From an uncultured Lysobacteraceae bacterium (GTDB lineage Bacteria; Pseudomonadota; Gammaproteobacteria; Xanthomonadales; Xanthomonadaceae), in NCBI GenBank assembly GCA_946480825.1, contig CAMLLG010000017.1:1-62335 (forward strand): a stretch of DNA of 62,335 nucleotides. The letters are read 5' to 3'. Both the position numbers and the translations under genes were made by a program. Within the stretch, counting starts at the first letter, position 1. Every line of letters begins with the position of its first letter. Positions 4,737-55,611 of this stretch are shown one piece after another. Below the pieces are notes generated by a model. It worked only from the letters and a program-made list of their open reading frames with translations, was not told the origin of the DNA and did not search any database.

Positions 4737-5165
4737 TTACAAAGTTGCGACTAATACAGGCTCATGAAGTCCGACCATTAATAATACCTCCGGATCACCG
4801 TCGTACTCGGAAATCCGTATCTCCGTGAATGGTCCGAACGATTTCGAAATTTTCGCACTGAACTCGATATTGTCTCCAATTCTGCAATTTCTCCAGGCGG
4901 ATTTCTCTTTCGGATTGATAATTAGAAACAAATAATCCGATCTGAGAGTCTTGCCAACAGACAGTGGATAGTTCTCAGGCGTCATCGAAAGTGCTATTCC
5001 AGGTGCAAACTTTTCGTCAATTTTAATTTCGATCACCTTACCCTGCCATTTCACGCTGGCGCCACTGAACTTTTTTGATATCTCGATATCTCTTTCGCCT
5101 TGATCGAAGAGTTTGGCGACATCTCCAACGAATGCCTCCCAACTAGTCAGCGCCTCACAGCTCAT
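4737..5165 (-). CDS. hypothetical protein (immunity cluster)
   Basis: 142 residues, ATG 5165, its start codon overlapping the stop of the previous gene in an ATGA arrangement, so translation is probably coupled. Rich in beta strands and lysine (KWQGKVIEIKIDEKF, IEFSAKISKSFGPF) and ending in hydrophobic LLMVGLHEPVLVATL. No family recognised. Its base composition is clearly AT-richer than the surrounding chromosome, a sign of recent acquisition. An immunity function is inferred from position. Confidence 0.5.
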   Translation of the reverse strand: MSCEALTSWEAFVGDVAKLFDQGERDIEISKKFSGASVKWQGKVIEIKIDEKFAPGIALSMTPENYPLSVGKTLRSDYLFLIINPKEKSAWRNCRIGDNIEFSAKISKSFGPFTEIRISEYDGDPEVLLMVGLHEPVLVATL

Positions 5166-45978: not shown

Positions 45979-47238
45979 ATGGAGCTGATCCGCAAACTCT
46001 CGATCCTGGCCGATGCGGCCAAGTACGACGCCTCCTGCGCCTCCAGCGGCGCCGGCGGCCGCAACTCGCTAAAGTCCGGCGGCATCGGCAGCACCGAAGG
46101 CATGGGCATCTGCCATTCCTACACGCCCGATGGCCGCTGCGTGTCGCTGCTGAAGATCCTGCTCACCAACTTCTGCATCTACGACTGCGCCTACTGCGTG
46201 AACCGCATCAGCAGCAACGTGCCGCGCGCGCGCTTCGCCACCGACGAAGTGGTGCGCCTGACCTTGGATTTCTACAAGCGCAACTACATCGAAGGCCTGT
46301 TCCTCTCCAGCGGCATCATCCGCAGCGGCGACTACACGATGGAGCAGATGGTGGAAGTCGCGCGCAGCCTGCGCGAGGATCATCGCTTCGCCGGCTACAT
46401 CCACCTCAAGACCATTCCCGAAGCGTCGCCGGAACTGCTCGCGCTGGCCGGCCGTTACGCCGACCGCCTCAGCATCAACGTCGAATTGCCGACCGAAGCC
46501 GGGCTGAAGAAACTGGCGCCGGAGAAGACTCTGCCCGGCATCCGCGCCGCGATGGGCGAAGTGCGCTGGCGCATCGACGAGAATCTCGAAGCCCGCAAAC
46601 CGAAGACCGCGCCGAAACGCAGCAAGCCGCCGCGCTTCGCGCCCGCCGGACAGAGCACGCAGATGATCGTCGGCGCCGACGATGCCGACGACCGCAGCAT
46701 CCTGCGCACGTCGCACGGGCTGTACAACGATTTCCGCATGCGCCGCGTGTACTACTCCGGCTTCAGCCCGATCCAGGACGCCTCGTCGATCCTGCCGGTG
46801 AAGGCGCCGCCGCTGCTGCGCGAGCACCGCCTGTATCAGGCCGACTGGCTGCTGCGCTTCTACGAATTCGGCGTCGACGAAATCGCGCCGGATGCGGCGC
46901 ACGGCGGCAGCGGCATGCTCGATCTCGACATCGATCCGAAACTCGCCTGGGCATTGCGCCATCCCGAACTGTTTCCGGTGAATCTCAACCGCGCCCCGCG
47001 CGAACGTCTGCTGCGCGTGCCGGGGCTGGGCACGCGCAACGTCGATCGCATCCTGATCGCGCGCCGCCACGGCGTACTGCGGATCGCCGATCTCGCACGT
47101 TTGCGCGCACCGATGCAGAAAGTGCTGCCGTTCGTGCAGCTCGCGGATCACCACCCGCGCAAACGCCTCGACGACCCCGCCACGCTGCGCGCGCAGCTGG
47201 CGCCGAAACCGCGGCAGCAGGATCTGTTCGCCGCATGA
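45979..47238 (+). CDS. radical SAM DNA-modification/repair protein (TIGR03916 type)
   Basis: 419 residues from ATG 45979. The radical SAM cluster motif is CIYDCAYC (CX3CX2C) in the N-terminal third, preceded by ICHSYTPDGRCVSLLKILLTN. Then come FLSSGIIRSGDYTMEQMVEVAR, LKTIPEASPEL and a C-terminal helix-hairpin-helix (NRAPRERLLRVPGLGTRNVDRIL) that probably binds DNA. This family is always paired with a DUF4130 protein, here directly downstream with an ATGA overlap. Predicted to modify or repair DNA; the reaction is unknown. Confidence 0.85.
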   Translation: MELIRKLSILADAAKYDASCASSGAGGRNSLKSGGIGSTEGMGICHSYTPDGRCVSLLKILLTNFCIYDCAYCVNRISSNVPRARFATDEVVRLTLDFYKRNYIEGLFLSSGIIRSGDYTMEQMVEVARSLREDHRFAGYIHLKTIPEASPELLALAGRYADRLSINVELPTEAGLKKLAPEKTLPGIRAAMGEVRWRIDENLEARKPKTAPKRSKPPRFAPAGQSTQMIVGADDADDRSILRTSHGLYNDFRMRRVYYSGFSPIQDASSILPVKAPPLLREHRLYQADWLLRFYEFGVDEIAPDAAHGGSGMLDLDIDPKLAWALRHPELFPVNLNRAPRERLLRVPGLGTRNVDRILIARRHGVLRIADLARLRAPMQKVLPFVQLADHHPRKRLDDPATLRAQLAPKPRQQDLFAA

Positions 47239-48074
47239 GCCGATATCGCGCCCGCATCGATCCTCCGTGGGATCTCGCCGCCTGGCGTGCGGCGGCGCGC
47301 GCCGCGCTGCGCGCGGACCTGCGGCCCGAAGACATCGACTGGGACGGCGACAGCGGAGCAGGCTACACCCAGGCCAGCCTGCTCGCCGCGCCCGACCTCG
47401 CCACCGTCGAACCGCTGCGCGCCGCGCCGCAGGTGCCGGCCGCGCTGTTCGAACTCGCCGACAGCGTGCTCTGCCATCGCGACCCGCAGCGCCACGCCCT
47501 GCTGTACCGCATCGCCTGGCGGATCGCGCAGGGCGAAAAACATCTGCTCGGCCGCGTCACCGATGCCGACGTGCGCCGCGCGTCCGAACTGGCCAAGGCC
47601 GTCGGCCGCGACAGCCACAAGATGAAAGCCTTCGTCCGGTTCCGCGAAATCCCGGGCGAAACCGATGCTTTCATCGCCTGGTTCGAACCAGAGCATCACA
47701 TCGTCGATCGCGTCGCCCCGTTCTTCGCCCGCCGCTTCGCCGGCATGCGCTGGGCGATCCTCACCCCGTATCGCAGCGTCGCCTGGGACGGCGCCGCGCT
47801 CGGCTTCGGACCCGGCGCACAGCGCAGCGACGCCCCCGACGACGACACCCGCGAAGACCTGTGGCGCACCTACTACGCCCACATCTTCAACCCCGCGCGC
47901 CTCAACCCGCGGATGATGCGCCAGGAAATGCCGCAGAAATACTGGAAGCATCTGCCCGAAGCGCATCTCCTTCCCGACCTCATCCGCACCGCAGGCGAAC
48001 GCGTCCGCGACATGCAGGAACGCGAAGCGCAGGCGCCGAGGCGGAAGATCCGGCCAAGGGCAGAGCGCCCGTGA
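47235..48074 (+). CDS. DUF4130 / TIGR03915 DNA-metabolism protein
   Basis: 279 residues from ATG 47235, overlapping the preceding stop. The DUF4130 pattern is clear: VRRASELAKAVGRDSHKMKAFVRFREIPGETDAFIAWFEPEHHIVDRVAPFFARRFAGMRWAILTPYRSVAWDG, followed by a P-D-D-D-T-R-E-DLWRTYYAHIFNPARLNPRMMRQEMPQKYWKHLPEA end. In many bacteria this domain is fused to a UdgX-type uracil-DNA glycosylase; here it stands alone. A basic C-terminal tail (RRKIRPRAERP) suggests nucleic acid binding. Confidence 0.82.
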   Translation: MSRYRARIDPPWDLAAWRAAARAALRADLRPEDIDWDGDSGAGYTQASLLAAPDLATVEPLRAAPQVPAALFELADSVLCHRDPQRHALLYRIAWRIAQGEKHLLGRVTDADVRRASELAKAVGRDSHKMKAFVRFREIPGETDAFIAWFEPEHHIVDRVAPFFARRFAGMRWAILTPYRSVAWDGAALGFGPGAQRSDAPDDDTREDLWRTYYAHIFNPARLNPRMMRQEMPQKYWKHLPEAHLLPDLIRTAGERVRDMQEREAQAPRRKIRPRAERP

Positions 48075-48112: not shown

Positions 48113-48204
48113 GTAGAGCGGCCTTCAGGCCGCTGGGTCGACCATCCCGTGACGATTCGGGGGCCTGCTTTTCAACAGTTGAATGACGGGGCAGCCCGCT
48201 CTAC
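48113..48204. repeat. SMAG-like REP pair (GTAG-headed palindromes)
   Basis: GTAGAGCGGCCTTCAGGCCGCT at 48113-48134 is a hairpin headed by GTAG. A second hairpin in the opposite direction ends in CTAC at 48201-48204 (CCCGCTCTAC). This matches the SMAG family of Stenotrophomonas maltophilia as remembered. Such pairs lie after genes and may affect mRNA stability. Confidence 0.6.
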
Positions 48205-48643
48205 GGGTGCATGCGTCGGAATTGTTGAACAGACGCTTGGAGACGCCGTAGATCGCGATTTACATCACCCCATGAAACCCGTGTCGATCGCATCGCTTCC
48301 CGTAGCGATATGACGGCGAACCCCGGGCTATTCCAATTCCGGCCTCGACATGACATGCGTATCCCCCACGAATCACGGCCAACGACGACCACTATCGCGA
48401 CACGCGAGCCTCCGGCGCAAAAAGGGTCAGGTTGACCTCTTTAGCGAACAGAACGCATTTTTTACCCAAGTTCTGACCCTGATGAATGCCGCCAAGAGCG
48501 CTACCGGCAGCCACAGCGGACCCATACCCGCAGGCGGGCAGCGCGCCATTGCCGACTCCCTTGCGCGGATGGCGCGAATTTTGGACGATGGGTCGGTTTT
48601 TTTGTACACCATCGTTATCCGCACATTGCCCACATAACCTCCA
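48205..48643. other. gene-free stretch before AbiH with imperfect inverted repeat
   Basis: From 48205 to 48643 I see no gene. Around 48419-48480 the ends AAAAAGGGTCAG and CTGACCCT form an imperfect inverted repeat with a 50-base loop, a pattern recalled from the borders of RAYT/REP-associated or MITE-like elements. GC falls from here into AbiH, marking the left edge of an accessory segment. Confidence 0.35.
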
Positions 48644-49501
48644 ATGAACACGCTGTACATCATCGGAAACGGATTTGATCTCTGGCACGGCCTACCAACG
48701 GACTATGGAAGTTTCTATGCGTATGCAAAGGACATGCTTGATGAAATGGAGGCGTACTACATAAGTGGAAGCCACCTGGATAGGCCATGGCACAACTTTG
48801 AAATCTGTTTAGGCACCTATGATTGGCAGCTCTTCTATGACGCATACAACAACATTGATGTCATGTCTGAAGATTTCAGGCCAAGTCAAGCATATGGTCT
48901 AGAGGATGAGCTAACTGCGGAGTCAGAAAGTCACGTCGAATCGGTTAGAAGCCTCTTCTTTGAGTGGATTTCCGAAATAGATGTTTCTGTCGCTAGCGCA
49001 AAATTTCAGTTCAATCAGGGCGCAAGCTTCCTGACCTTCAACTATACGGATACACTCCAGTCTGTATATGGGATTCCGAAAAGCCAAGTTCTTCACATTC
49101 ACGGCAGCGCAACGGCATACGATGATCTCGTATTCGGTCATGGCGAGACCATGGCGGAAGAGCCAGAAATAGACGAGAAAGGGAATAGCAATAGAACAAT
49201 TTTCACGGATGCTCAAGGTGCTGCAAAGTATCCGTTCTACGCATTCCAGAAACCGGTGCACGAGATACTTAAGAAGCATCAGGTCTTTTTTTCGTCCCTT
49301 ACGAGAGTCTCTGAGATTGTAGTAATTGGGCACTCTCTCAGCGATGTAGATCTGGTTTATTTTATTGAGATATCTCAGCACGCCAAAGGAAGTCGCTGGG
49401 TTTTCTATTGCTATAAGGAATCGGACGCTGAACACTATGTGCGCCAATTGGGCAGGTGTGGTGTACCGTCAAATTTAATTGAGATTCGCGCGTACCCATA
49501 A
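48644..49501 (+). CDS. AbiH-family abortive phage infection protein
   Basis: 285 residues from ATG 48644. It starts MNTLYIIGNGFDLWHGLPTDYGSF, the AbiH opening (IxGNGFDLxHGLxTxYxxF), and later contains FLTFNYTDTLQSVYG, VLHIHGS and a VVIGHSLSDVDLVYF segment, all typical of AbiH, a protein that aborts phage growth in lactococci and is widespread. Its base composition is far AT-richer than the flanks, indicating horizontal origin. The mechanism is unknown. It is flanked by REP-type palindromes. Confidence 0.88.
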   Translation: MNTLYIIGNGFDLWHGLPTDYGSFYAYAKDMLDEMEAYYISGSHLDRPWHNFEICLGTYDWQLFYDAYNNIDVMSEDFRPSQAYGLEDELTAESESHVESVRSLFFEWISEIDVSVASAKFQFNQGASFLTFNYTDTLQSVYGIPKSQVLHIHGSATAYDDLVFGHGETMAEEPEIDEKGNSNRTIFTDAQGAAKYPFYAFQKPVHEILKKHQVFFSSLTRVSEIVVIGHSLSDVDLVYFIEISQHAKGSRWVFYCYKESDAEHYVRQLGRCGVPSNLIEIRAYP

Positions 49502-49505
49502 GCAA

Positions 49506-49597
49506 GTAGCCCGGGTAAGGCCGAAGGCCGCACCCGGGAATACTGAGAGTACGGCGATCGTTATCCCGGGTGCGCGCCTTGCGCGTACCCGGGCTAC
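49506..49597. repeat. REP pair after AbiH
   Basis: GTAGCCCGGGTAAGGCCGAAGG (49506 on) and its opposite ending TACCCGGGCTAC at 49597 form a divergent pair of palindromes with inner CCCGGG repeats. This is a typical REP/BIME dimer, separating AbiH from the cassette cluster. Confidence 0.6.
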
Positions 49598-49624: not shown

Positions 49625-50053
49625 ATGCAACTTTGGCAACGCGCACTCCTTTCGCTGCTGGTGGTGTTCGCCAGCATCCTCTCTGTGCTAGGCATTATTT
49701 ACGTTGTTGGCTTGGCCAGAGTTCATGGCAGGCCTGTCCCAGCAGACCCATCCCAATACAGTTCTGAGGCTATTTCTGCAGCCTGGATGCGTTGCCGCGA
49801 GCAAATCCCGATCGCTGTCCATGCCAGCAATCCTTGGAGTTTCGCCTACAAGCTCATGTTTGCAGATCCGCTTGAGGCAACTCCAGGTGAGCGTGCCTCA
49901 TGGCGTATCGCCAGCACTCACAACTCAAGGCACCGTAGTGGCGATATGTTGTGGTGGCATACATCCGGTGCGGCGCTCAGCATTTGGATCACTCGGCATT
50001 GGTCTGCCGAGCAGATCGGCGCCACTTTAGTGCGAGACAACCTGTGCAAGTGA
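49625..50053 (+). CDS. membrane-anchored hypothetical protein
   Basis: 142 residues from ATG 49625 with GAGG upstream (an ATG at 49604 would add seven). A single N-terminal hydrophobic segment (ALLSLLVVFASILSVLGIIYVVGLA) anchors a periplasmic domain with AWMRCREQIP, WSFAYKL, WRIASTHNSRHRSGDMLWWHTSG and LSIWITRHWSAEQIGATLVRDNLCK. This end resembles proteins of conserved unknown function. Its stop codon TGA at 50051 is followed one base later by attC1, the position of a gene in an integron cassette. Confidence 0.6.
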   Translation: MQLWQRALLSLLVVFASILSVLGIIYVVGLARVHGRPVPADPSQYSSEAISAAWMRCREQIPIAVHASNPWSFAYKLMFADPLEATPGERASWRIASTHNSRHRSGDMLWWHTSGAALSIWITRHWSAEQIGATLVRDNLCK

Positions 50054-50054
50054 C

Positions 50055-50163
50055 GCCTAACAATTCGCTCAAGCCGACCCCGCATCGTGGCGTCGATCGC
50101 GTGCCTGCGCTACGCTGGCACGCGACTGCTGCGCTGCGGGGCGGTTCAACTCAGGCGTTGGAG
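50055..50163 (+). other. integron attC site 1
   Basis: R'' box GCCTAAC at 50055-50061, followed by AATTCGCTCAAGCCGACC, a long palindromic spacer and near the end GGCGGTTCAACTCAGGCGTTGGAG with the R' core GTTGGAG at 50157-50163. The order and sequence match the attC of the aadA family remembered as AACAATTCGTTCAAGCCGACG...CGGCTTAACTCAAGCGTTAG. R' deviates in its last base only. Confidence 0.75.
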
Positions 50164-50169
50164 CACGAC

Positions 50170-50460
50170 ATGCAGATGAGTCGCTCATTCCAGATCCTTG
50201 CCCGCTGGTTCGTGGTTGGCGTGATTTTCATCGGTCTCACTTTTGGGCTGAATCCTATGCCCGGCCTCGCCCTTCTCATGCTGCTGGTGGGCGCCTGCAT
50301 GATCGTTGTCGCCCCAGCCATCCACATACTGCTGGCCAAACGACAGCAGCGGTCAGGGTCCGAGCCCGCCAGTGCGGGAACCGTCTTTCTTGTCTCCGCC
50401 GGGGCAATCCTGGCGCTGATCATTCTTCTGGGCGCCACCGGCTTTTTCCATTTTACCTAG
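50170..50460 (+). CDS. small two-helix membrane protein (cassette)
   Basis: 96 residues from ATG 50170, with TTGGAG six bases upstream that lies inside the R' box of attC1, so integration provided the ribosome site. Two to three hydrophobic segments (ILARWFVVGVIFIGLTFGL, GLALLMLLVGACMIVVAPAIHILLA, GTVFLVSAGAILALIILLGATGFFHF) and a basic loop. No family recognised. First gene of the cassette ended by attC2. Confidence 0.6.
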   Translation: MQMSRSFQILARWFVVGVIFIGLTFGLNPMPGLALLMLLVGACMIVVAPAIHILLAKRQQRSGSEPASAGTVFLVSAGAILALIILLGATGFFHFT

Positions 50461-50545
50461 CCATGTCCGGGTCGCACTCCAAGAGCCTGTCCCAAGAGCA
50501 GCGTCGCCGCACGCCGCTACCGTTGAACATCGGCACGAGGTATCA

Positions 50546-50971
50546 ATGACAGCGATGCTGTTGCTTGAAGATGGGCGAGTGCTCCATCGATCCAATCTTG
50601 GCTATTGCGGCATGCTGCAATTGATTGCTGATGAGATTTCCGACTCTCATGTCAGGCTTCGCATATGGCTGGCAGATATGGCAGACAGAACGCCGCCTTT
50701 CTGTGAGTTCGACCTCCGAGGATTGACCGACGACCATCGACAAGAATTCTGGGCGGCCGGTGATCGTGCACTCTCGAAACTGGTGGCTCGATACGGCTCC
50801 AAATCGGCTTGGCCCGACAAGATGTACGCCGGGGAGAGCCTTTCTCACCTGATGAAAATGCATAGAAGCATTCTGGCTGGCGATCCGCCATCGATGCTCA
50901 ACGATCTTGAGGAGCCCGTGGATTTCAGAGGCATCGTTGAAGATATCGACGAATTGTGGCTCGTGGATTGA
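50546..50971 (+). CDS. hypothetical protein (cassette)
   Basis: 141 residues from ATG 50546 with GAGG six bases upstream. Soluble, with a strand-rich N-terminal MTAMLLLEDGRVLHRSNLGYCGML, ADRTPPFCEFDLRGLTDDHRQEFW and helical C-terminus with many acidic residues (EPVDFRGIVEDIDELWLVD), reminiscent of small immunity proteins. Unknown family. Its stop TGA directly precedes attC2 at 50973. Confidence 0.55.
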   Translation: MTAMLLLEDGRVLHRSNLGYCGMLQLIADEISDSHVRLRIWLADMADRTPPFCEFDLRGLTDDHRQEFWAAGDRALSKLVARYGSKSAWPDKMYAGESLSHLMKMHRSILAGDPPSMLNDLEEPVDFRGIVEDIDELWLVD

Positions 50972-50972
50972 C

Positions 50973-51086
50973 GCCCAACAATATCGTTCAATCCGACCAC
51001 GCATGATTGCGTTGGCGACATTTCCGCTGCTACGCTCGCACGTGTCCGCCACTCCGCCATGGGACGGCATAATTCAGGCGCCAGAC
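50973..51086 (+). other. integron attC site 2
   Basis: R'' GCCCAAC at 50973-50979, then AATATCGTTCAATCCGACC, a palindromic middle and GGCATAATTCAGGCGCCAGAC at the end. The R' core reads GCCAGAC at 51080-51086, its GTT altered to GCC, so it may no longer recombine. Confidence 0.65.
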
Positions 51087-51092
51087 GACCAT

Positions 51093-51611
51093 ATGACCAC
51101 CAAGCCCCTCGACAGATTGATGTTTGCCCAAGGGGGCGTTTGCTTCTTTTGCGACATGCCGCTTCCAAAAGCGGACGCCAGTGTCGAGCATCTCGTGCCT
51201 TCCTCACGAGCCGGCAGCAACAATGACGACAATTGCGTTGCCTGCTGCAAGGCAGTCAACGCACTCTTTGGCAGCATGTCTCTCAAAGAGAAAATTCGCG
51301 TCGTACTGAATCAGAAAGGAAAGTTCCTTTGCCCGAATGGCAACGGCTCCATGAAGACGGCCTCGGTCGCTCCAGTCGAAACTGCTCCCGCTCCGCAAAA
51401 GATGGACAACTACGCAGTCGTTCTTGCAGATCTCAAGAAACGAGGCGCATCACGTCCGAGGAAAATCGAGACGCTGAAAAGCACTATTCGCGCAACCGTC
51501 AAGAACGCAAAGAGCTCCATCACGGAAGCGCAACTGGAGACGCTGATCAAGCACTTGCAGGCAAACGGCAAGATTGTCATTTCCGAAAAAAAGGTTGCGT
51601 ACTCGCTATGA
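51093..51611 (+). CDS. HNH endonuclease-domain protein (cassette)
   Basis: 172 residues from ATG 51093. An HNH zinc-finger is seen at the N-terminus: CFFCDMPLPKADASVEHLVPSSRAGSNNDDNCVACC, with CxxC pairs and the conserved EHLVP and NxxxVACC. The C-terminal half is a lysine-rich helical region (RRPRKIETLKSTIRATVKNAKSSITEAQLETLIKHLQ), perhaps a DNA-binding module. Possible role in phage defence or genome mobility, typical of integron cassettes. No good ribosome site was found. AT-richer than the flanks. Confidence 0.72.
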   Translation: MTTKPLDRLMFAQGGVCFFCDMPLPKADASVEHLVPSSRAGSNNDDNCVACCKAVNALFGSMSLKEKIRVVLNQKGKFLCPNGNGSMKTASVAPVETAPAPQKMDNYAVVLADLKKRGASRPRKIETLKSTIRATVKNAKSSITEAQLETLIKHLQANGKIVISEKKVAYSL

Positions 51612-51612
51612 T

Positions 51613-51676
51613 TGTCCAGCGATTGATTGAAGCCGAATCGGCTTCTCGGCGCGACGCGACTCAAACGCGAGGTCCG
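51613..51676 (+). other. degenerate attC site 3
   Basis: Begins directly after the HNH stop: TTGTCCAGCGATTGATTGAAGCCGA, a short palindrome around CGGCTTCTCGGC and GACTCAAACGCGAGG at the end. It lines up with the aadA-type attC along its length but both core boxes are altered. Confidence 0.45.
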
Positions 51677-51678
51677 CA

Positions 51679-52002
51679 ATGAATCACGATGCCTGGCTGG
51701 AACTCATGCGGTTTCCACCGGAATGGGTGGCTTGGCACATGATTCCTGAAGCATTGGCCGCCATCCAGCTTGCCGGCTACGAACCGGGACATGAGGATGC
51801 GTCGGAGCATGACCGGCATGGCGCGTTCCAGTGGTGGCTCAAACAACAACCGGCCCCGGAGATACTGGTGCAGTTGGCACGGCTGTCCTGGCTCGATCCG
51901 GATCCGTTGATCGCTCGCCACGTGAGAGACTGCATCGCCCGGCAGTCCGGCGACAACGCGGAAGTGCGGGATGCCCTTGCCACTCCGTACCAGCGGGCCT
52001 GA
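51679..52002 (+). CDS. hypothetical protein (cassette)
   Basis: 107 residues from ATG 51679. A helical protein with many His and Asp (GYEPGHEDASEHDRHGAFQWW) and WLDPDPLIARHVRDCIARQSGD near the C-terminus. No family recognised, no membrane segment. Between attC-like sites 3 and 4, so it fits a one-gene cassette. Confidence 0.5.
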   Translation: MNHDAWLELMRFPPEWVAWHMIPEALAAIQLAGYEPGHEDASEHDRHGAFQWWLKQQPAPEILVQLARLSWLDPDPLIARHVRDCIARQSGDNAEVRDALATPYQRA

Positions 52003-52060
52003 TCACTCATCCGGGCCGACGCCGCTCCGCATCGCGCATCGGCTCATGCCTCAACATCCA
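52000..52060 (+). other. degenerate attC site 4
   Basis: Starts at the stop of the previous gene and continues CATCCGGGCCGACGCCGCTCCGC...GCGCATCGGCTCATGCCTCAAC, which follows the aadA attC (TTCAAGCCGACGCCGCTTCGC...CGGCTTAACTCAAG) closely in the middle and less at the core boxes. Confidence 0.5.
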
Positions 52061-52079
52061 TTGGCAGGAGTGTCGCATC

Positions 52080-52691
52080 GTGAGAATTCCGATCTTTCCG
52101 ATCGCCATCGCCGCTTCATTGATCGCCGGTTGCTCCGACGGCGGCTCCGGTCAATCGCAGGGCAGCACCGTTGCCGCGGAAGCCGCGGCGGCGGCGGATG
52201 CGGCGGAAACCGCCGCTGCGCCAGCGCAGCAACACGGCGGCGCCGGAGTCGGTTGGCCTGCGGGTGAAGCCTGCGCCTTCCTGGAGCCGACGCTGGCGAC
52301 GCGCGGATACAAGCATGATTTCGACGATGAGTATCATTGCTCCTCGCCCTACATGGACATCGGGCCATCGACGCCCCAACTGGCCAACAACCTCGCGTAT
52401 TACGTCACCGGGGGTGCGGAGACGGCGGACACGTTGAAGCTCGTGTTGAACTACAACCAGCCTGCCAACGCCGCTTCTGCGACCGAACAACTGGTTGCGG
52501 CATCGCAACATCTCTCGCTTGAGGCGACCGGCAACGACCTTCCGCCGGCCATCCTTTCGGGGCTCTCGGCGGGGCGACCGATTGTCGAAGTCTCGGAAGG
52601 TTTTCGGCACGAGGTCAAACGAGACGACTGGCCCACCGGACGCGGTTACGAGACCCACTACATCGTTACCCGCTCCGCGGATCGCCGATAA
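52080..52691 (+). CDS. lipoprotein (cassette)
   Basis: 203 residues with a GTG start at 52080, chosen because AGGAG lies nine bases upstream. Lipobox IAASLIAGCSD. An Ala/Gln-rich spacer leads to a domain with Cys-Gly-type segments (GWPAGEACAFLEPTLATRGYKHDFDDEYHCSSPYMDIG), two cysteines that may bond, and a C-terminal WPTGRGYETHYIVTRS. No family recognised. Its stop TAA starts the next attC-like site. Confidence 0.6.
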   Translation: MRIPIFPIAIAASLIAGCSDGGSGQSQGSTVAAEAAAAADAAETAAAPAQQHGGAGVGWPAGEACAFLEPTLATRGYKHDFDDEYHCSSPYMDIGPSTPQLANNLAYYVTGGAETADTLKLVLNYNQPANAASATEQLVAASQHLSLEATGNDLPPAILSGLSAGRPIVEVSEGFRHEVKRDDWPTGRGYETHYIVTRSADRR

Positions 52692-52750
52692 TTCATTCAC
52701 GCCAAGGCCAAAGCCAGATCACTTTCGTGGCGCGGTTCAACGCAATGTGG
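52688..52750 (+). other. degenerate attC site 5
   Basis: GATAATTCATTCACGCCAAGGCC, a short loop and CTTTCGTGGCGCGGTTCAACGCAATG fit the aadA-type attC (AACAATTCGTTCAAGCCGACGCC...TTCGCGGCGCGGCTTAACTCAAGCG). The second half is the better match. The last bases of the lipoprotein gene lie inside it. Confidence 0.5.
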
Positions 52751-52817
52751 CGAATGCACTGCAACTCGTTTTCGTGCCCTCGCGATCGGCTCGTCGCATC
52801 TCTCGAACGGAGACCGC

Positions 52818-53375
52818 ATGGGAATTTTGACCTTCTGTATCAACAGCACCCTAGACGGCTGCATCGACCATGAGGAAGGCATCGCCGACGACGAGACGCA
52901 CGCCTTCTTCACACGGCTCATGGACGAACACGGGGCGATGCTGTGGGGCCGCGTCACCTACGAGATGATGGAAAGCCATTGGCCGCGTGTCGCCCGCGGC
53001 GATGCGGAGGCACCACCGGCGGTGCGCGAGTGGGCGACCACGCTGGAAACGAAGCCGAAATATGTGGTGTCCTCGACACGAAGCGATTTCCCGTGGGCCA
53101 ACAGCCACCGCATCGCCGGCGACCTGCGCGCCGGTGTGCAGAAGCTCAAGGACACCACCCCGGACGGCGTACTCCTCGGCAGCGGCAAGCTGGCGACCGC
53201 GCTGGACCGTTTGGATCTCATCGACGAATACAGATTGCTCGTCCACCCCAGGATCGCCGGACACGGCCCGACGCTGTTCGAACGCGGGCTGCCCGGCACA
53301 CGACGGCTCGCATTGATCTCGGCGCATCCGCTGGAGAACGGCGCGGTCGCCATGCACTACCGGCGCGCACCTTGA
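52818..53375 (+). CDS. dihydrofolate reductase/RibD-C family protein
   Basis: 185 residues from ATG 52818. Pattern of the RibD C-terminal/DHFR-like family: ILTFCINSTLDGCID, MLWGRVTYEMMESHWP, EWATTLETKPKYVVSSTRSDF, GVLLGSGKLATALDRLDLIDEYRLLVHPRIAGHGPTLFE. These NAD(P)H-binding proteins reduce unknown small molecules; they often sit in accessory regions. Here it is followed by an attC-like sequence, and so may be a cassette gene. Confidence 0.8.
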   Translation: MGILTFCINSTLDGCIDHEEGIADDETHAFFTRLMDEHGAMLWGRVTYEMMESHWPRVARGDAEAPPAVREWATTLETKPKYVVSSTRSDFPWANSHRIAGDLRAGVQKLKDTTPDGVLLGSGKLATALDRLDLIDEYRLLVHPRIAGHGPTLFERGLPGTRRLALISAHPLENGAVAMHYRRAP

Positions 53376-53794
53376 TCTGGGGAAAGGTCATGTCGCATCA
53401 CGACGCGCTCCGTGCGACGCCGCTTCGCGACGCGACTTGATCCGGAACTCGGGCGACCGTCGATGGGGATATCGATGCACGAATTCCGGTAGACACCGGC
53501 CGAGAGCAGGCGAGTCCTCGAAAGCCTCTGTTCGGGTGACCCGGCGGCGATGCGTTCCGTTCTGCGCTGTCTCCCGGCGCTCCGCGGGTGGCGACCTTCG
53601 CCGCATCCAACCACTTCGAGGCAATAACGATTTACCATCGCAGGCATGGCCGCAAGCCATTCGTGACGACGGATGCCCGGGACTGGATGTTTGCCTTGAA
53701 ACCTGGACTGCGCCTCGGCTCGATTCGGCCCGCCGCCGCGCGCGGCGCAACCCGGACATCAACCAATGCACGCGACTTCGGATCACGGGGAAAC
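53376..53794. other. gene-free stretch with degenerate attC site 6
   Basis: 419 bases without a convincing gene. Around 53411-53450 the sequence GCGACGCCGCTTCGCGACGCG, then ACTTGATCC, resembles the middle and left side of an aadA-type attC. The rest, up to the next gene, appears to be decayed cassette material. Confidence 0.35.
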
Positions 53795-54013
53795 ATGATG
53801 GTCGTCAGCATCGTACTGCTCGTCGCTTACTCCGTGTTCTGTTGCTGGGCGCTCTTCATGCATGGGGCCGAGGTACTTGACAAATTCATCGTTTCCGGTC
53901 GAACCGGCAAGCCCTTCACCCCTCGCAAGCTCAAGCTGTACATCGGAATCGTCTGGCTTCTGGGTCTCGGACTGACGCTGCTGCAGGTATTCTTCGGCCC
54001 ATGGAGGTCGTAA
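53795..54013 (+). CDS. small two-helix membrane protein
   Basis: 72 residues from ATG 53795 with GGGGAA upstream. Two hydrophobic segments (VVSIVLLVAYSVFCCWALFMHG and LYIGIVWLLGLGLTLLQVFF) around a basic loop SGRTGKPFTPRKLK. No family recognised. Short spacing (~40 bases) suggests cotranscription with the next gene. Confidence 0.5.
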   Translation: MMVVSIVLLVAYSVFCCWALFMHGAEVLDKFIVSGRTGKPFTPRKLKLYIGIVWLLGLGLTLLQVFFGPWRS

Positions 54014-54402: not shown

Positions 54403-54774
54403 ATGACGATGAAGCGTCTGATCCCGATGCTGCCGGTGGCCAGCATGCCCGCGAGCGTCGAGTTCTACCGCAAGCTCGGCTTCGCGGTCGAGAAACGCAA
54501 CGACGGCTGGCGTTGGGCGATGCTGGTCTGCGGCGATTGCCGGCTGATGGTGGACGAATCGATCCATCTGCACCCCGGCATTCCGCGCACATCGGTGCTG
54601 TACCTGTATCCCGAGGACATCGTGCGGTTCCATGCGCAGCTGCGGGCGAACGGCATCGACGTTCCCGAACTGGAAACATCCTTCTACGGCATGCGCGAGT
54701 TCCGGATGGAAGATCCGGACGGCAATCGGCTGTGGATCGGGCAGGACACGGGCACGGAAGCATCCGCGGATTGA
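54403..54774 (+). CDS. VOC (glyoxalase/bleomycin resistance) family protein
   Basis: 123 residues from ATG 54403 (54409 also possible). Starts with LIPMLPVASMPASVEFYRKLGFAVE, the VOC opening, with RNDGWRWAMLVCGDCRLMVDE and ends MREFRMEDPDGNRLWIGQD, the metal-binding Glu motif. Single VOC domain; usually binds or neutralises a small toxic molecule. Substrate unknown. Confidence 0.82.
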   Translation: MTMKRLIPMLPVASMPASVEFYRKLGFAVEKRNDGWRWAMLVCGDCRLMVDESIHLHPGIPRTSVLYLYPEDIVRFHAQLRANGIDVPELETSFYGMREFRMEDPDGNRLWIGQDTGTEASAD

Positions 54775-54840: not shown

Positions 54841-55611
54841 TCAGGCCAGATAACCGCCGTCCACCGTCAGGCAGGTGCCGGTGACGTAGCCGGATGCGGG
54901 CGATGCGAGGAAGAGCACCGCGGGCGCGATTTCGTCGGGCTGCGCGCTGCGGCCCATCGGAATCAGCTGCGTCATCATCGCCATCAGCTTCGGGTTGCCG
55001 GTGATGGCGGATGCGAACTTGGTATCGGTGAGGCCCGGCAGCACGGCATTGACGCGCACGCCGTGGGCCGCGAGTTCCTTGGCGAAGCCTTCGGTCATGT
55101 TGACGATGCCGGCCTTGGTCATCGAGTACACGCCCTGACCCCAGGCGGGTCGGCGCGCATTGACCGAGGCGATGTTGACGATGCTGCCGCCGCCGTTGTC
55201 CTTCATGCGGCGTGCGGCCTGCGCGGTGGCCCAGAAATAACCGCGCAGATTGACTTCGACGGTCTTCTCGTAGCTGGCGAGATCCATGTCGATCATCGGG
55301 CCGTAGTACGGATTCGCGGCGGCGTTGTTGACCAGGATCGCGGGGGCGCGGCCATCGGCATCGAGGCCGGCGAACAGCGCTTCGATCGCCGCGGGATCGC
55401 CGACGTGCAGCGCGCGGGCCTCGGCGGAGCCGCCGGCCTCGCGGATGGCCGAGGCGACCGCTTCGCAGGCGTCGACCTTGCGCGAGGTACAGACGACATG
55501 GGCGCCGTGGGCCGCGAGCAGATGGGCGATGGCTTCACCGATGCCGCGCGAGGCGCCGCTGACGAGGGCGGTCTTGCCGGTGAGGTCGAATAGCGGGTCC
55601 GGGGTCGGCAT
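54841..55611 (-). CDS. SDR-family oxidoreductase
   Basis: 256 residues from ATG 55611. Rossmann motif TALVSGASRGIGEAIAHLLAAHGA, NNAAANP, the catalytic Ser of IVNIASVNARRPAW, then YSMTKAG (Tyr-x-x-x-Lys) and the end GYVTGTCLTVDGGYL. Classical short-chain dehydrogenase/reductase (~250 residues), likely NAD(P)-dependent alcohol/ketone or acyl-ACP-type reductase. Divergent from a second SDR gene with 80 bases between starts. Confidence 0.9.
   Translation of the reverse strand: MPTPDPLFDLTGKTALVSGASRGIGEAIAHLLAAHGAHVVCTSRKVDACEAVASAIREAGGSAEARALHVGDPAAIEALFAGLDADGRAPAILVNNAAANPYYGPMIDMDLASYEKTVEVNLRGYFWATAQAARRMKDNGGGSIVNIASVNARRPAWGQGVYSMTKAGIVNMTEGFAKELAAHGVRVNAVLPGLTDTKFASAITGNPKLMAMMTQLIPMGRSAQPDEIAPAVLFLASPASGYVTGTCLTVDGGYLA

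Follow-up and report, generated by a model that had tools for sequence, protein, structure and literature searches.

Do the small genes between two conserved genes of an uncultured Lysobacteraceae bacterium form a cassette array, and if so, can its cassettes still move? Integron integrases (IntI) move cassettes through recombination of the folded bottom strand of attC. The original prediction, made for the window (the whole stretch of 62,335 nucleotides analyzed here), was of six plus-strand attC-like sites after small genes. All six were recovered, none more than about 20 nt from its predicted location. The features are as follows.

47235–48074, plus strand: left conserved flank, putative DNA-repair protein of the TIGR03915 family (NCBIfam TIGR03915, E = 1.2e-66)
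48644–49501, plus strand: AbiH-like abortive-infection gene (Pfam AbiH, E = 2e-52; PADLOC AbiH, E = 3.1e-31)
49506–49597, plus strand: REP-like palindrome between the AbiH gene and cassette 1; an inverted repeat with no recognisable attC or attI
49625–50053, plus strand: cassette 1 gene, 142 aa, with a 60% identical homologue in genome G077
50055–50163, plus strand: nearly intact long-form attC (site 1), with GCCTAAC as R'' and GTTGGAG as R'
50170–50460, plus strand: cassette 2 ORF a, 96 aa, open frame, no Pfam match
50546–50971, plus strand: cassette 2 ORF b, 141 aa, open frame
50973–51086, plus strand: long-form attC (site 2) lacking GTT (R' GCCAGAC)
51093–51611, plus strand: cassette 3 gene, HNH endonuclease-like, 172 aa (Pfam HNH_5, E = 8e-7)
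51614–51673, plus strand: attC site 3, decayed, 60 nt (60-mer score 26.6, the window's best)
51679–52002, plus strand: cassette 4 gene, 107 aa, with a 63% identical homologue in G024
51997–52056, plus strand: attC site 4, decayed, 60 nt (60-mer score 9.8; covariance model E = 0.035)
52080–52691, plus strand: cassette 5 gene, lipoprotein-like by eye, 203 aa, no Pfam match
about 52684–52754, plus strand: attC site 5, decayed and carrying an indel; its position is its main support
52818–53375, plus strand: cassette 6 gene, RibD_C/DHFR-like, 185 aa (Pfam RibD_C, E = 2.8e-14)
53395–53454, plus strand: attC site 6, decayed, 60 nt (60-mer score 10.9; core piece, covariance model E = 0.02)
54844–55611, minus strand: right conserved flank, short-chain dehydrogenase (Pfam adh_short_C2, E = 8e-62)

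The array holds six cassettes with seven ORFs, all on the plus strand and with open reading frames. Its six attC sites or remnants share that orientation and adjoin stop codons: each lies within ~20 nt of one, and sites 4 and 5 overlap it.

Sites were scored with weight matrices and a covariance model (CM) built from attC sites of seven relatives, all in arrays adjacent to intI (58 sites; 59 before one duplicate was dropped). With the two-arm matrix, sites 1 and 2 score 55.5 and 25.9, above every one of 40 simulated first-order Markov windows (maximum 11.9, mean −1.2), and site 3 (8.7) falls inside the simulated range. With the full-length 60-mer matrix, scanned over both strands of the 62 kb, the three best matches are sites 3, 6, and 4 (26.6, 10.9, and 9.8), all above the maximum of 100 simulated windows (−0.1). 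The CM check proposed with the original prediction detected site 1 (45.4 bits, E = 3.1e-11 over the whole window) and none of sites 2–6 at E ≤ 0.001 (site 2, 13.5 bits, E = 0.36; site 3, E = 0.48). Rfam gave no match in the window at its gathering threshold. A plain motif search for attC was discarded: it was exact at site 1 only, found two other places with 2–3 mismatches, and had its count equalled by 19 of 100 shuffles. Neither the two-arm nor the 60-mer scan found attC remnants around the genes at 53798 and 54052.

Site 5 is not significant alone. Its 5' arm is identical at 18 of 22 positions with one gap and its 3' arm at 8 of 22, and the 5' arm scores 9.5 versus 14.2 for an unrelated site at 5035–5117; the leader from site 5 to the next gene is similar to that of a cassette in G084. 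Comparison with other genomes also bears on sites 3 and 6. Site 3 is identical at 40 of 60 positions to the attC at the equivalent place in G149, and in G084 a less decayed attC (60-mer score 35.3) follows the same RibD_C gene at the position equivalent to site 6.

On this sequence evidence, 49625–53454 is a CALIN-type relic. At least two attC sites are close together (sites 1 and 2, 0.9 kb apart), backed by the three decayed sites that exceed all simulations of the second matrix, and six of six sites lie in a single orientation at gene 3' ends. As predicted, the 62 kb window gave no integron integrase (tblastn with the IntI of G003 as query, best E = 2.2). The assignment was made with the matrices and CM built here and includes only one site at CM E ≤ 0.001.

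The AAC and GTT cleavage triplets are both present in site 1 only; each of the other five sites lacks at least one of the two. The bottom strands of five sites (1, 2, 3, 4, and 6) were folded, with a divided outcome for the second proposed check: site 1 (z = −3.3) folds better than 199 of 200 shuffles and site 3 better than 196 of 200, both with outer boxes not paired as in attC, and shuffles fold as well as sites 2, 4, and 6 do. The combination expected of a functional attC, both triplets and a folding bottom strand, was not found, and mobility of the predicted cassettes today is not supported. Since only site 1 has both triplets, cassettes 2–6 are most likely immobile and inherited like ordinary genes.

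Homologues in other Lysobacteraceae tie the genes to integrons. In searches of 198 genomes drawn from the family, with all array ORFs except ORF a (50170) as queries, four of the seven array genes, those of cassettes 1, 3, 4, and 6, have at least one homologue each that adjoins attC, in G077, G157/G149, G024, and G044/G084, respectively; attC was scanned at some of the fetched homologue loci. The G077 homologue of the cassette 1 gene, which has one internal stop, is flanked on both sides by intact attC in a long array (one partial site there is an artefact of the fetched region's edge), and the 19-kb regions of three other homologues (38–48%) have no attC. Copies of the HNH gene with 83–85% identity adjoin intact attC in G157 (two copies) and G149, and the cassette border ahead of the gene matches, reading GTTAGACGACCAG in G157 and GCCAGACGACCAT in the window. 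G149 is the sole homologue-bearing genome in which an intI, probably broken, was seen beside the cassette. The G024 homologue of the cassette 4 gene is within an array having a related attC form, and three others (43–59%) have no attC within about 1.5 kb. The RibD_C gene has matches in 64 of the 198 genomes, five of them at 80–84%. Among six scanned loci (these five close homologues and L158), those in G044 and G084 are flanked on both sides by attC or decayed attC, and those in G003, G151, and L158 have no adjoining attC. For ORF b and cassette 5, genome comparisons gave no link to attC: ORF b has matches in none of the 198 genomes, in a search with no positive control, and 29 proteins elsewhere besides the window's own, Methyloversatilis included; the cassette 5 gene has weak partial matches in two genomes, with no attC at either locus.

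These homologues and the site statistics uphold the predicted reading of a cassette array without an integrase that is decaying into the chromosome. For four cassette genes, dN/dS is 0.07–0.28 (0.07–0.09 for the HNH gene), an estimate that mixes several lineages. Defence or toxin-related roles, also predicted for the array genes, are not supported: the HNH protein alone has matches of this kind, weak and PtuB-like (best E = 5.8e-5). The sole clear defence gene, judged by its profile matches, is the AbiH-like gene, which adjoins the array from outside.

Conserved genes flank the array. The left flank gene comes after a radical-SAM gene (45979–47238), and the left and right flanks are collinear in the three closest relatives found (L001–L003), at 82–83% and 81–82% nucleotide identity. 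In these relatives the two flanks are separated by 0.5–1.1 kb that contains no attC. At the left border, the REP-like element has a weak Rfam match to naRNA4 (49509–49594; 28.1 bits versus a gathering threshold of 59.5), and a 3'-arm scan left of cassette 1 found no attC or attI remnant.

That the sites are unrelated hairpins, such as terminators or REP elements, resembling attC by chance is very improbable. The low CM scores of sites 2–6 and the REP-like palindromes that do adjoin the array speak for it, but the simulations were exceeded and homologous attC sites exist in other genomes; in our view this refutes chance for sites 1, 2, 3, and 6, whereas site 5 alone could be due to it. Two other alternatives concern the array's arrival only and overlap with our main explanation. 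Cassettes may have been inserted singly by an integrase acting in trans, at a non-attI (attG-like) place, and then decayed, never having belonged to a longer array. We consider this a real but lesser possibility. The lack of attC at the locus in L001–L003 and the location of intI in the L001 and L003 genomes at another locus, beside bioC, are consistent with it, and cassette insertion at attG sites is on record (Loot et al. 2024, as cited in the available portion of PMC12444791). However, the decay order would require stepwise insertion with the newest at site 1, and no attG junction was recognised because the REP-like element occupies the left border.

The array may instead be a segment moved from another genome or locus, perhaps with the AbiH gene, and partly decayed beforehand, which we regard as unlikely. 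The AbiH gene has a GC content of 0.46 and no match in the 198 family genomes (no positive control), and the distance of site 3 (0.44, one branch) compared with flank dS to L001–L003 (0.42–0.49, two branches summed) suggests, on a rough clock, that decay is at least as old as the split from these relatives. Apart from the roughness of that clock, no mobile-element border was noticed between 48074 and 54841, where the analysis covered Pfam searches with ten ORFs, a repeat search, and a single IntI query.

Very probably, then, six cassettes that each once ended in a Xanthomonadales-type attC came to lie between two conserved chromosomal genes and are now the decayed distal part of an array without a neighboring integrase. 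The attC sites have since mutated, the AAC and GTT pair surviving in site 1 only, and the cluster is best interpreted as an old distal part that lost its integrase or never had one adjoining. This reading draws on the drop in site quality along the array, in the same direction as in most other Lysobacteraceae arrays examined. The sites, the homologous cassettes, the near-empty locus in three relatives, and the distal decay elsewhere are observed; the immobility of the cassettes, the age order of the sites, and the route of arrival are inferred. Among the five detected sites, array order and score correlate at rho −1.0. Over their whole length, sites 3, 4, and 6 match the consensus about equally well (39, 37, and 39 of 60), so the gradient depends mainly on sites 1–2 versus 3–6. 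GC3 shows an overall but uneven rise along the array (0.59 to 0.81) and was rejected as a second age signal, as RibD_C homologues themselves have GC3 of 0.85–0.90; partial adjustment is apparent in the HNH gene only (0.65 versus 0.52–0.56).

Across 17 arrays in 11 genomes, attC decay is concentrated distally (mean rho −0.43; none of 2000 permutations as low). The last two sites score below the remainder in 14 of 17 arrays, in 10 of the 13 that gave no training sites (0 of 4000 permutations), and, taking one array per genome, in 9 of 11 (0 of 4000). Of the sites in the last two positions, 11 of 34 have both triplets intact, versus 168 of 195 others (Fisher p = 3e-10). The trend is opposite in three arrays (G012:C20, G012:C1, and G009:C2) and level in one (G192), and IS insertion makes up part of the distal damage. 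The arrays are a nonrandom sample, from genomes and places already matched by homologue searches. To enter the test, an array needed at least four sites and at least 3 kb past its last site, which removed G007:C16, G003:C12, G003:C20, G003:C29, G149:C23, G006:C1c twice, and a second G012:C1 array (for the same reason also removed by hand from the triplet count); clusters of one or two sites fall outside the test. In the limited literature searched, including the accessible portions of PMC5371416, PMC12444791, and PMC8352920, we found no statement of distal attC decay, which is not proof of absence.

The cluster is of a known kind, and its decay pattern is the point of interest. Like the CALINs of Xanthomonas, in a related bacterial family, as described in the sections available of PMC12444791, it has several chromosomal attC cassettes in one orientation and no proximal intI; unlike them, it has attC sites that are mostly too decayed for the CM to detect at E ≤ 0.001. 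Its locus does not figure among those named in these sections. Sedentary chromosomal integrons of Lysobacteraceae (G006, G008, G009, and G011) share the 60-nt and about 110-nt attC types and the orientation rule but carry intI, with most of their attC intact; the window's cassette homologues are located in G077, G157, G149, G024, G044, and G084, not in these four. The predicted resemblance to aadA-type attC is accounted for by the attC type of Xanthomonadales, in which the portion consulted of PMC8352920 places several aadA cassettes; the likeness here is one of taxon and of sequence.

Cassette genes are usually viewed as mobile. This cluster, whose sites have decayed to differing degrees and whose cassettes can be compared with homologous ones, shows how they may turn into ordinary genes. 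Decay may be layered along arrays, an idea we hold with even confidence for and against: distal sites, being oldest and unrenewed by recombination, would erode first and fix the far cassettes, and the window would be the end state, a tail without an integrase. If distal erosion holds broadly, cassette insertions could be ordered and roughly dated from sequence, and model-based attC searches would be suspected of undercounting fossil cassettes. If the layered reading is true, arrays would keep releasing domesticated genes, whose age could be estimated from attC divergence.

Sites were tested with models trained on attC of relatives, not on textbook attC letters. A search pattern combining site 1 with general attC features was present in 10 of 13 relatives (reversed control, 0 matches), and in eight of the 13 an integron integrase exceeds the NCBIfam cutoff, one of these with an internal stop. 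Training sites comprised 58 distinct attC sites from intI-adjacent arrays of seven of those genomes (52 at 60 nt, one at 62 nt, and five at 109–112 nt), from which we built a covariance model (R1), a two-arm weight matrix (58 sites), and a 60-mer matrix (52 sites). The two-arm maximum across 40 simulated windows averaged −1.2 and reached 11.9; 60-mer scores were ≤ −0.1 in 100 simulated windows.

attC sites of the window cluster (plus strand)
50055-50163, site 1: two-arm 55.5 (training range 52–86); covariance model E = 3.1e-11
50974-51086, site 2: two-arm 25.9; covariance model E = 0.36
51614-51673, site 3: two-arm 8.7; 60-mer 26.6; covariance model E = 0.48
51997-52056, site 4: 60-mer 9.8; covariance model E = 0.035
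~52684-52754, site 5: supported by position and 5' arm (18 of 22 letters); 3' arm 8 of 22
53395-53454, site 6: 60-mer 10.9; covariance model E = 0.02 for a core piece

Sites 3, 6, and 4 are the best three 60-mer matches on both strands of the 62 kb. Of the two well-formed and four decayed attC sites in the original prediction, the covariance search supports site 1 and, only weakly (E 0.02–0.48), sites 4, 2, and 3 and the core piece of site 6. Only site 1 keeps both AAC and GTT; site 2 has AAC with GCC in place of GTT, sites 3, 4, and 6 have lost both triplets, and site 5 is disrupted. When bottom strands of sites 1, 2, 3, 4, and 6 were folded as single-stranded DNA, sites 1 and 3 were more stable than 199 and 196 of 200 shuffles, respectively, and sites 2, 4, and 6 were ordinary. 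Neither of the two more stable sites shows attC pairing: the outer boxes of site 1 are unpaired in its best structure, and site 3 does not have an attC shape. Coding frames in the array are open, with dN/dS of 0.07–0.28 for four genes against homologues, a value that mixes several lineages.

Homologous cassettes in other Lysobacteraceae settle the nature of the window array. The HNH protein has matches in 12 of 198 genomes. Copies with 83–85% identity, two in genome G157 within a 23-site array and one in G149, all have an intact attC only a few bases downstream, and window site 3 aligns with that of G149 at 40 of 60 positions. A copy in G192 is 76% identical over its first half and precedes a divergent attC-like site; remaining matches are weak. 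In G149 (L147:9062-10803), the HNH cassette adjoins an integron integrase that matches in two overlapping pieces and is probably broken. The cassette 1 and cassette 4 genes (starting at 49625 and 51679) each have matches in four of 198 genomes. A 60% homologue of the former, with one internal stop, has intact attC on both sides in a long array of G077; those at 38–48% (G150, G109, and G186) have no attC in 19-kb regions. A 63% homologue of the latter lies within an array of a related attC form in G024, and three others (43–59%) have no attC within ∼1.5 kb. An array of G024 (L184) has a distinct, apparently intact attC form (GCCTAACTTCGCGTTTCAGCGGA...) that nevertheless scores only 15–32 with the Lysobacteraceae matrix. 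The RibD_C gene has matches in 64 of 198 genomes, five at 80–84%. It is flanked by attC sites in G044, is followed by a decayed site in G119 (60-mer 20.4), and has no adjoining attC in G003 and G151. In G084, where it ends the detected array, decayed sites flank it, and the leader before it and remnant after it resemble those in the window. The lipoprotein-like gene has weak matches in two of 198 genomes; AbiH and ORF b had none in the 198, in searches run without a positive control.

Scores of the five detected window sites drop from left to right (56, 26, 9, −10, and −18). We compared 17 arrays from 11 genomes of relatives, requiring four or more sites per array and 3 kb past the last site; the arrays are a nonrandom sample, drawn from loci matched in our searches. 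Spearman's rho between score and order averaged −0.43 (equally low in 0 of 2,000 permutations), and the last two sites averaged 27 points below the remaining sites (0 of 4,000). This drop was present in 14 of 17 arrays (in one by a mere 0.1 point), 10 of 13 arrays without training sites, and 9 of 11 when one array per genome was used (0 of 4,000 in both subsets). Independent of any matrix, 11 of 34 last-two sites keep both AAC and GTT, versus 168 of 195 others. In L206 (G006:C1:2977647-2986556), two three-site attC clusters 7 kb apart have the same rounded scores, which suggests a duplicated cassette block.

In four arrays, a sequence that begins with CAACTGTC interrupts one far site, after TCAG or TCTG.

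attC sites cut by this sequence
L146:13787-14782 (G157), followed by an IS110-family transposase
L096, near 18040
L094, near 7613
L205, near 11477

Insertion of IS elements therefore explains part of the distal decay. The sequence looks like an element of the IS1111-attC type, with a target in attC between L' and R'.

The window comes from the chromosome of a Lysobacteraceae bacterium. Among the best 80 loci by the radical-SAM gene (45979), the top three relatives (88–89% protein identity) are L001, from a Lysobacter MAG, and L002 and L003, from Lysobacteraceae. Flanks to ∼48050 and from ∼54831 are collinear in all three, with a gap of ∼0.5, ∼1.1, and ∼0.9 kb, respectively, versus 6.8 kb in the window. 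By eye, the gaps hold a VOC-like gene, plus one extra small gene in L002 and L003, and neither the covariance model nor the weight matrices found attC in these 21-kb loci. A VOC-family gene adjoins the dehydrogenase in the window too (54403-54774; Pfam Glyoxalase); its protein looks different from those beside the dehydrogenase in the relatives, so this slot may be a turnover hotspot. Two REP-like palindromic elements (48113-48213 and 49506-49597) lie on either side of the AbiH gene, the second occupying the expected left border of cassette 1.

Site 3 is at a distance of 0.44 from its counterpart, all of it on one branch if attC elsewhere was kept uniform; dS of the flanking gene to L001–L003 is 0.42–0.49, both branches summed. 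Site decay may therefore be as old as the split from these relatives, a timing that is indicative only. If so, either cassettes were lost in the relatives or the array arrived already worn.

In the genomes of L001 and L003, intI adjoins bioC, with an internal stop in the L001 genome's copy. In Xanthomonas, the integron platform is at ilvD, and about half of genomes carry CALINs elsewhere (PMC12444791). The window cluster is therefore one more case of a familiar kind. What merits further attention is that attC decay is graded and distal.
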